Virus record (IMG/VR): IMGVR_UViG_3300021519_000014
Location: 1-53,474 of that record
DNA: 53,474 bases
Direction: 5' to 3' (one strand)
From: a virus
Shown piece by piece: positions 10,281-12,821 of the stretch. The notes under the pieces are model-generated. The model had not been told where the DNA came from. It did no database searches and saw nothing but the letters and a program-made list of their open reading frames with translations. A program made the translations under genes and the position numbers. The number at the start of each line of letters is the position of its first letter. The first letter of the stretch is position 1.

Positions 10281-10292
10281 ATGGAGAATAGC

Positions 10293-12821
10293 ATGGGATT
10301 GATACTGAGTTTGGACTATGAGACGCAAAGCGCGCTCGACCTGACCAAGATCGGCGCTTACCGCTACGCCCAGAGCGCCAAGATCATGTGCGCCGGCTAC
10401 GCGATCTACGAAGAGAACACGTTCAAGCCCGAAATGGTGAAGCCGTGGCGCGCTTGGAAGGGCGAGCCGATGCCGGGCGACCTGCTCGCGGCGCTGTCCG
10501 ACGAGAGCGTCAGGAAGTTCGCGTGGAACGCCCAGTTCGAGCGCCTGATCACGCTGCACGCCGCGGGCCTCGCGGTGCCGCAGGAGCAGTGGTTTTGCAC
10601 CGCCGCGCGCGCCCGCGCCTCGGCCTACCCCGGCAAGCTGGACCTGTGCGCGAAGGCGCTGGCGATCCCGCAGAAGAAGGATCTGGCGGGCGGCAAGCTG
10701 ATGAAGAAGCTCTCGACTGAGGGCACCGGGACCGAGGAGGAGTACGAGCGCGTCCTCGAATACTGCATGCAGGATGTTGTCGTCGAGGCGACCATCGGCA
10801 TGGTCGTCCGCGACCTGACACGCGAGGAGTGGAAGGACTACCACGTCTGCGAGCGCATGAACGACCGCGGCATTCCCATCGACGCCGATCTGGCGCGCGC
10901 GGCGCAGAGCTATGCCGAGGTCGAGGCGGCAGAAATTGCCAAGGAATTAAATGCCGCGACGGGCGGCGCGATCACCAGCGCGAAGCAGTTCGCCCGCATC
11001 AAGCAGTGGGTCGCCGTGAAGGCGCCCGAGATTGCCGAGCAGTTTACCGACGAGGAGACGGGCAAGTTCTCGCTCGACAGGTCGGCGCGCACCGCCATCT
11101 TCGAGAGCGACCTGAACCTCAGCGAGGAAGTCCGCGAGGTGCTGGAGCTGATCGACGACGCCGGGCGCGCGAGCACGGCCAAGTACGCCGCCATCGAGAA
11201 CCGCACCGACACCGACGGCCGGTTGCGCGGCGCGTACCTGTTCAACGGTGCGGGGCAGACTGGCAGATACTCCGCCATGGGATTTCAGCCGCATAATCTG
11301 GTGCGCGACAAGCTCGACAACAGCGGCGACGTGATCGAGGCCGTGCTCGACGGGGCCTCTGCCGACGAGGTCACGACGCTCTCCGGGCAGAACATGCTGA
11401 CGACGCTGGCGCGCATGCTGCGCCCGACCATCGTCGCGGAGAACGGCAACGTGCTGGTCTGGGCCGACTACTCGGCCGTCGAGGCACGCGCCCTGCCGTG
11501 GCTCTCGGGGACACAGGACGCGGAGCCCCTGCTCGATCTCTTCCGCAAGAACGAGGACGTCTACAAGCACGCGGCGTCGGGCATCTACGGCGTGCGCGCA
11601 GACGCTGTAGACAAGGCGCAGAGGCAAATCGGAAAAATTTCCACATTGGCTCTAGGGTACGGCGGCGGAGCAAACGCCTTCCGCAAGATGGCGCGCGCCT
11701 ACGGTCTGAAGATCACCGACACCGTCGCAGAAGAGATCAAGGTCGCGTGGCGTCTGGCGAACCCGTGGGCGAAGACTTTCTGGCGCGATCTGGAGACGGC
11801 AGCGATCCTCGCTGTGCGCCACCCCGGCGACGTCGCAGAGGCGGGTCGCATCAAGTACCTGATGCACGGCGACATGCTCTACGCGCTGCTGCCCTGCGGG
11901 CGCCTGATCGCGTACCCGGAAGTCGAGCTGGTGGAGATCGAGGGCAAGTACGGCCCGCAGCCTCGCCTGACGGCGCTGAAGGCCTCGATGCACCCGAAGA
12001 AGGGCGAGACGGCGTGGCCCCGCGTTGCACTCTATGGTGGTCTGCTCGCCGAGAACTGCCTCGCCGGTGACACGGAAGTGCTGACGCCCGATGGATGGGT
12101 CGAACTGGCCGATGTGGGCGCGCGTCCCGTGTGGGATGGTGTCGAATTCGTGCGGCACGACGGCGTCATCGCCAAGGGTATTCGGTTGACCGGCAGGCTG
12201 GACGGGGTCCGCCTGACGTCGGATCATAAAGTGCTCACTGCGAAAGGATGGGTCGATGCCTCGGAAGCGGAAGGATTTGACAGGGCAAGTGTTCGGGCGC
12301 TTGACGGCTATAGCGCCGGTGGACAGCGCGCAGGGGTATGGGCCAGAGAATTGCCGCTGGGCTACGCGAGCGGAGCAGGCGCGGAATACCCGACGCTCCC
12401 GGTTCATCGACACACCATGGGGGCGCATGATGGTGGCGGGCGCAGCGGAACGGTCGGGCATCGGGGTGACGACATTGCTGTACCGTTTGGGGCGTGGGAA
12501 CCCGCTGTTCACGAAGCCGTCTACGACATCCTGAATTGCGGCCCTCGACAGAGGTTTGTTGTGCGCGGCCATTCGGGTCCTTTCATCGTGCACAACTGCA
12601 CGCAGGCATTCTGCGCCTCCCTGCTGCGCACCGCCGTGCGCCACCTCGACGACGCCGGGTGGCCCGTCGTCATGCACACGCACGACGAGGTTCTCGTTGA
12701 AGTCGGGGAGGATGAGATCGAGGAGGCCAAGGCAGCGTTGCAGGAGGCGATGCTGACGAACCCGTGGCCGGACTTACCCCTTGCCGCCGAACCGGAGTAC
12801 GGATACAGCTACGACAAGTAG
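10293..12821 (+). CDS. polA: Family A DNA polymerase interrupted by an intein
   Basis: ATG 10293 is chosen over ATG 10281 because GGAG lies between them. Residues 1-180 form a DnaQ-like 3'-5' exonuclease (DYET, WNAQFE, and EYCMQD with the third Asp). Polymerase motif A is VWADYSAVEARAL (about 388), motif B RQIGKISTLALGYGGG (about 443) and motif C THDEVLVEV (about 792). A 180-residue intein (12057-12596) separates motifs B and C; without it the enzyme is 662 residues, normal for phage PolA. Protein splicing is required for an active enzyme. It replicates the phage genome with the primase-helicase that follows. Confidence 0.93.
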   Translation: MGLILSLDYETQSALDLTKIGAYRYAQSAKIMCAGYAIYEENTFKPEMVKPWRAWKGEPMPGDLLAALSDESVRKFAWNAQFERLITLHAAGLAVPQEQWFCTAARARASAYPGKLDLCAKALAIPQKKDLAGGKLMKKLSTEGTGTEEEYERVLEYCMQDVVVEATIGMVVRDLTREEWKDYHVCERMNDRGIPIDADLARAAQSYAEVEAAEIAKELNAATGGAITSAKQFARIKQWVAVKAPEIAEQFTDEETGKFSLDRSARTAIFESDLNLSEEVREVLELIDDAGRASTAKYAAIENRTDTDGRLRGAYLFNGAGQTGRYSAMGFQPHNLVRDKLDNSGDVIEAVLDGASADEVTTLSGQNMLTTLARMLRPTIVAENGNVLVWADYSAVEARALPWLSGTQDAEPLLDLFRKNEDVYKHAASGIYGVRADAVDKAQRQIGKISTLALGYGGGANAFRKMARAYGLKITDTVAEEIKVAWRLANPWAKTFWRDLETAAILAVRHPGDVAEAGRIKYLMHGDMLYALLPCGRLIAYPEVELVEIEGKYGPQPRLTALKASMHPKKGETAWPRVALYGGLLAENCLAGDTEVLTPDGWVELADVGARPVWDGVEFVRHDGVIAKGIRLTGRLDGVRLTSDHKVLTAKGWVDASEAEGFDRASVRALDGYSAGGQRAGVWARELPLGYASGAGAEYPTLPVHRHTMGAHDGGGRSGTVGHRGDDIAVPFGAWEPAVHEAVYDILNCGPRQRFVVRGHSGPFIVHNCTQAFCASLLRTAVRHLDDAGWPVVMHTHDEVLVEVGEDEIEEAKAALQEAMLTNPWPDLPLAAEPEYGYSYDK
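12057..12596 (+). mobile_element. Intein (Hint domain) inside the DNA polymerase
   Basis: It starts at Cys after LLAEN with block A CLAGDTEVLTPDGWVEL. Block B is RLTSDHKVLTAKGW (T-x-x-H). Blocks F and G are VYDILNCGPRQRFVV and GPFIVHN, with the +1 extein residue Cys 12597. All residues for splicing are present: Cys1, block B Thr/His, the penultimate His, the terminal Asn and Cys+1. At 180 residues it is a mini-intein without an in-frame endonuclease. Its insertion site (LLAEN/CTQAF) is the conserved helix between motifs B and C, a typical choice for an intein. Confidence 0.92.
12256..12534 (+). pseudogene. Internally deleted HNH homing endonuclease ORF, out of frame within the intein
   Basis: The 92-codon ORF is in the +1 frame relative to the polymerase. 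It begins MPRKRKDLTGQVFGRLTAIA, the N-terminal signature of phage HNH/AP2-type endonucleases. It then jumps to GYGPENCRWATRAEQARNTR, the C-terminal part of the HNH core, and continues with the usual HTH-like tail (AAERSGIGVTTLLYRLGRG). The middle, about 80-100 residues with the zinc ligands and catalytic His, is missing, with the junction near PVDSAQ. As a nuclease it is probably dead, but the start, stop and DNA-binding tail are intact, so a small DNA-binding product is possible. Confidence 0.8.

Follow-up and report, generated by a model that had tools for sequence, protein, structure and literature searches.

The window analysed here was the whole 53,474-nucleotide (nt) IMG/VR virus record IMGVR_UViG_3300021519_000014, and the element under study was an intein in its family-A DNA polymerase (PolA) gene, together with an open reading frame (ORF) nested in that intein in another frame. 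All features lie on the plus strand. The PolA gene, taken as frame 0, occupies 10281–12821 (Pfam DNA_pol_A, E = 5.6e-19), and its frame remains open across the intein, as a preliminary description of this DNA had stated. The intein (12057–12596, 180 residues from Cys1 to Asn180) is inserted between YGGLLAEN and CTQ of PolA, with Cys+1 at 12597–12599. Its N-terminal splicing half (12057–12254) holds blocks A and B, its C-terminal splicing half (12519–12596) holds blocks F and G (VYDILN...FIVHN), and C1, T54, H57 (block B TxxH), D157, H179, N180 and C+1 are all present. The match to TIGR01445 (E = 0.0015) fell below the cut-off. A predicted model gave a confident Hint fold over residues 1–80 and 143–180 (predicted local distance difference test score, pLDDT, 95–98), and significant PDB matches of this model were to inteins only, the best being the Ssp DnaB mini-intein (E = 7e-6). 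The insertion is in frame at a conserved site, which is empty in most close PolA relatives. By motifs, predicted fold and insertion site the element is a genuine intein, and it would be expected to splice.

Within the intein, the +1 frame contains an ORF of 92 codons plus stop (12256–12534, ATG to TGA), which was identified as an HNH endonuclease remnant. Two PHROG models of HNH endonuclease families matched its 92 residues (phrog_3377, E = 3.3e-12; phrog_374, E = 9.2e-12), and a hidden Markov model (HMM) of the nested HNH family, about 215 positions long, matched in two blocks, at model positions 3–23 (12265–12327) and 138–210 (12319–12528). Model positions ~24–137, which correspond to the catalytic core, are absent, leaving the window ORF as a remnant only. 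The preliminary description had read this ORF as the two ends of an HNH endonuclease with the centre deleted, and both searches bear this out with scores far better than chance. The HNH identification rests on PHROGs because a Pfam search of the remnant gave no HNH model, returning only HTH_8 at E = 0.11. The in-frame linker of the intein matched nothing in the same profile search.

The N-terminal remnant (MPRKRKDLTGQVFGRLTAIAP, 12256–12318) covers HMM positions 3–23, the approximate deletion junction was placed at 12316–12321 by alignment and by the gap from 23 to 138 in the HMM match, and the C-terminal remnant (12319–12531) comprises the end of the HNH motif and a helix-turn-helix (HTH) tail, for which HTH matches were obtained in the family. 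A Shine-Dalgarno-like AAAGGA (12243–12248), formed by the block-B codons for Lys-Gly-Trp, stands 7 nt before the nested ATG at a position conserved in the family, and the stop TGA (12532–12534) is supplied by codons of the C-terminal splicing half. The linker of the intein (12294–12479, predicted disordered, pLDDT about 50) is the out-of-frame reading of the HNH DNA.

A full-length relative at the same site

A close relative, L003 (IMGVR_UViG_3300022179_001846, with a second, partial copy in L002), has the same PolA with a 292-residue intein at the same insertion site, and its +1 frame encodes a complete 204-residue HNH (phrog_374, E = 1e-52). Downstream of the deletion, the window remnant equals the L003 HNH in 67 of 71 residues (about 94%), and 336 nt (112 codons), encoding the HNH catalytic core, are gone relative to L003. 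Since this loss is a multiple of three, both frames stay open. DNA identity to L003 is mosaic along the intein, at 65–77% in the N half and 93–98% in the C half with the switch near the deletion junction, and is mostly 82–100% in the flanking polA sequence. Both the deletion and the mosaic could have arisen from one unequal recombination event involving two inteins of this type.

The PolA group of the window holds, side by side, empty sites with Ala+1 (L253, L257 and others), the full element (L003), the degraded element (the window) and empty alleles with Cys+1 (L252, L254, L256, L263, L264, L271, L274), stages that are as expected, from their sequences, for a homing cycle. Downstream of the site, the window differs from the nearest of the Cys+1 empty alleles (L252, L254, L256) at 0–2 bases per 54-nt bin, and these near-identical flanks suggest either that an intein was lost precisely and recently or that the donor is a recent one. 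Another close relative of the window PolA (L270, 1891–4533) has the window site empty; its intein is a different one, sits at the motif-B site and contains an HNH-like ORF read in +2.

Inteins with an out-of-frame nuclease gene

IMG/VR was searched with the N-terminal splicing half alone, which contains HNH sequence only in a few overlapping codons, producing 79 loci. By our count, about 68 of these carry a full or near-full out-of-frame HNH; the others include remnants (L120, L101, L102), a few broken or truncated copies, and mini-inteins without any HNH trace (L096, L116, L142). Pooling of this search with an HNH search and GTDB genomes gave 81 distinct phage or prophage inteins with a full out-of-frame HNH (distinct meaning non-identical in sequence, some being close relatives), with the HNH in +1 in 66, in +2 in 15, and in frame in none. 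The same layout is found in Caulobacter phages GB2A, RW, RLK and KcrB, Shewanella phage SFCi1 and the Hamiltonella phages APSE, and the interrupted proteins are PolA (two site regions), an SNF2-type helicase and the terminase large subunit.

As a check, the preliminary description had suggested looking for longer versions whose alternate frame encodes the whole HNH, and such relatives were found. Its account of an HNH gene that sat within an intein in another frame and was later shortened, with the linker now the out-of-frame translation, stands in so far as L003 is an uncut version and the 81 inteins share the layout; the invasion itself, which it had placed in this intein, is not an event in this phage. 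The window element holds no full-length HNH, and by comparison with its relatives it is a secondary loss from an old, widespread cassette, a deleted derivative that descends from the class and is no longer an intact member.

In a quick tree of the HNH sequences, whose deep branches are weak, the +2 genes formed one clade (support 99) joined by the +1 gene of a double-intein polymerase (L131), the +1 genes of PolA and helicase formed the main group, the terminase case (L180) fell among free-standing HNHs, and the HNHs of four split-intein PolA genes formed another clade. Nesting probably had three or more origins. The same helicase gene has a second, unrelated intein (L047, 1340–1960, with the intein start near 1090; L093/L094, 2281–3027), which carries a different nuclease in its +1 frame, with a match to DUF559 (E = 4e-5) and a Vsr/EDxHD-like character; out-of-frame nesting is therefore not limited to HNH.

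The splicing blocks of +1 members also hold putative translation signals for the nested frame. A Shine-Dalgarno sequence plus start, formed from block-B codons, was present in 59/69 (any candidate start near the HNH N-terminus; 50/69 when only the single nearest start was taken) compared with a background of 11% for out-of-frame starts in the extein, and the Shine-Dalgarno positions are fixed, lying around Gly-Trp or at the GAGGT of His-Glu-Val. The stop of the +1 genes falls in the block F codons for Asp-Ile-Leu-Asn in about half, and further into the C half in the rest.

The host frame across the HNH has no stop in 81/81 nested inteins, a figure that is partly ascertainment, as an open frame was a collection criterion, with only about four broken cases seen. 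The same frame in 142 free-standing HNH relatives has a mean of 14 stops and is open in two (L171, L175), both of which group with the nested genes, L171 being a truncated nested intein. When HNH codons of +1 members were permuted synonymously, the median probability of a stop-free host frame was 0 of 200. At 70–85% DNA identity, amino acid identity was 73% for the HNH versus 44% for the linker, with changes mostly at HNH third positions, indicating that the product being conserved is the HNH, with the linker as a by-product under constraint to avoid stops. An AlphaFold model of the L003 HNH had a mean pLDDT of 93, with predicted phage HNH proteins as its best matches. At one locus (L112, 3501–4418) the nested HNH has an internal stop and the host frame is open, as would result from decay of the nuclease before that of the intein.

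Homing signature and rival explanations

Most APSE phage records contain a 918-nt intein; APSE-8, one APSE-7 record and one APSE-2 record lack exactly this stretch. Over the 114 nt that precede the site, pairs of unlike intein state show 9–11 differences and pairs of like state (full-full or empty-empty) show 0–2, whatever their distance elsewhere. Between APSE-1 and APSE-8, 19/234 positions differ near the site versus 15/1830 far from it (p = 2e-10), and the inteins differ among themselves at 1–5/918 nt. Presence and absence together with flank differences clustered at the site are, as sequence patterns go, the classical co-conversion mark of homing. GenBank notes on LR794148, LR794146 and LR794152 (L284–L286) describe these APSE polymerases as 'partial, missing large internal portions'; they are empty-site alleles, and the genes are probably intact. 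In APSE-1 (NC_000935), GenBank annotates an HNH (P46) overlapping the DNA polymerase (P45), which is a full member of the class. No prior reading of P45/P46 as an intein-nested homing gene was found, and annotators call the intein-less alleles partial. The APSE-1 DNA polymerase is presumably listed as an intein in InBase.

Across all hosts, HNH divergence correlated with N-extein divergence (Mantel correlation 0.65), and because this is partly driven by different host genes, the analysis was repeated within PolA with partial correlation. With the divergence of the intein and of the distant extein removed, HNH divergence there follows the 28 amino acids around the site (partial r = 0.24, 0/500), and in the same test intein divergence itself does not follow these 28 amino acids.

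Taken with the architecture and homology at the locus, these results make it very probable that the window carries a decayed member of a widespread phage intein class whose homing endonuclease gene lies in another frame. An intact member has a complete HNH homing endonuclease, read in +1 or +2, between its splicing halves, and the polymerase frame would cross this HNH DNA as a linker that is disordered, free of stops and without meaning of its own, to be excised by protein splicing. The HNH would probably be translated from an internal start just past block B, using a Shine-Dalgarno sequence made of block-B codons, with translation ending inside the C-terminal splicing half. Alleles that lack the intein would be cut by the enzyme at the insertion site, whereupon repair would copy intein and HNH jointly. 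An in-frame loss of 336 nt, perhaps by recombination with another intein, removed the catalytic core in the window lineage, leaving what is probably a splicing-competent mini-intein that would no longer home by itself. More broadly, we consider it likely, with rather less assurance, that an out-of-frame endonuclease, HNH or other, is a common and repeatedly evolved build of mobile phage inteins, in effect a selfish element of two fully overlapping genes, where the nuclease would take its ribosome-binding site from block-B codons and its stop from codons of the C half.

Several results weigh against this interpretation. A clear Shine-Dalgarno sequence at the nested start was seen in only 2/15 of the +2 members (e.g., L153, L160, L162), the homing signature comes from APSE and not from the window's own group, and the ascertainment noted above bears on the open host frames. 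Pfam searches of 51 full HNHs gave HTH families and no HNH model, Foldseek of the HNH model against PDB gave no significant match, and a PDB sequence search of the HNH returned only I-HmuI (E = 0.13); there is therefore no solved template for this HNH.

The lack of Shine-Dalgarno sequences in the +2 group, together with the nearly constant +1 frame in the main clade, would suit programmed frameshifting, by which the HNH would be produced joined to the polymerase and N-intein and not from a start of its own. We regard this as quite unlikely, given that most +1 members keep start codon and Shine-Dalgarno sequence at fixed places and that stops usually close the HNH frame a little upstream (in the window, it is open only from 12217). 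HNH activity being itself a prediction from sequence, the nuclease might instead be a dead passenger everywhere, with the intein spreading by ordinary recombination; strong conservation of the HNH frame across distant phages, the co-conversion pattern in APSE, the covariation of the HNH with its target flanks, and an internal HNH stop in only 1/81 (L112) make this highly improbable. The chance that an ordinary mini-intein has a linker that merely resembles an HNH in another frame, as might be imagined where high guanine-cytosine content makes long open alternative frames common, is negligible in view of the PHROG scores, the identity over 71 residues with the complete HNH that L003 has at this site and the 81 relatives, and chance overlap is ruled out by L003. 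A canonical in-frame endonuclease was also rejected.

For the window itself, the 92-residue +1 product might still be made and bind the polA junction, for example to shield it from competing HNH enzymes or to tune polymerase expression. Its ATG, Shine-Dalgarno sequence and stop are all intact, and the HTH tail is kept in the window, L120 and L101. In comparison with L003, the one close comparator, the C-terminal part has 4 HNH amino acid changes versus 8 in the linker, and 6/11 nucleotide changes are HNH-synonymous; this apparent selection may come wholly from the L003 branch, where the HNH is intact, and the N part differs at 10/21 residues. As the polymerase frame is kept open, the phase of the HNH is retained automatically, and its retention is no evidence of function; other mini-inteins (L096, L116, L142) have lost everything. 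A functional small protein is unlikely, and the window element is most likely a mini-intein that splices and bears a relic of 92 codons, inert though possibly leaky.

Comparison with known systems

A literature search found nothing on inteins with a nested out-of-frame HNH, within a coverage that did not extend to a preprint on non-canonical actinophage inteins, and an out-of-frame HNH nested inside a genuine intein is provisionally considered new. Many phage inteins that lack a recognisable endonuclease have linkers which seem to carry no meaning; the class would explain these linkers, and such 'large mini-inteins' become candidate mobile elements in hiding. The class also offers large, natural, fully overlapping gene pairs with clearly divided roles, one frame needing only to avoid stops, and these are useful for testing models of overlapping genes. 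It further illustrates a route by which a selfish gene for a nuclease could come to lie in a splicing element with no in-frame fusion, a point relevant to the long-standing problem of how the partnership of inteins and endonucleases arose.

The ShiLan domain (Arsenault, Gosselin, Gogarten 2025, PMC11855218) is an out-of-frame HNH insertion in a phage methylase gene, and resembles the nested class in having an HNH homing gene out of frame in a phage gene, a host frame kept open, and a disjunct distribution suggesting homing. ShiLan has no intein motifs, intein fold or detectable Shine-Dalgarno sequence and is thought to remain in the methylase, whereas the nested class consists of genuine inteins with a Hint fold and a Shine-Dalgarno-like site from splicing-block codons, in several host genes; the window element, which has a splicing domain, is thus not of the ShiLan type.

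Fractured genes, with a homing endonuclease between the halves of a split intein (Dassa et al. 2009, as cited in PMC10448857), likewise have a separate endonuclease gene between N- and C-intein. PolA genes of this kind were seen in L151 (from 2218), L130 (from 1823), L105 (from 1287) and L132 (from 695), in the order of an ORF ending in the N-intein, an overlapping HNH ORF, and the C-intein plus C-extein in another frame. To the extent that the citing article describes such arrangements, the host gene there is broken and trans-splicing is needed, whereas in the nested class the host frame is continuous and cis-splicing would be kept.

Canonical homing-endonuclease inteins of the PI-SceI type share with the nested class the movement of splicing domain and endonuclease as one unit, and differ in that their endonuclease is fused in frame and forms part of the spliced-out polypeptide, in place of a separate gene in another frame. 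HNH ORFs of group I introns are similarly homing genes sheltered in a self-removing element; RNA splicing requires no open host frame, whereas in the nested class both frames must stay open. The window intein resembles ordinary mini-inteins in being without an active endonuclease, and differs from them in that its linker holds a recognisable out-of-frame nuclease remnant.
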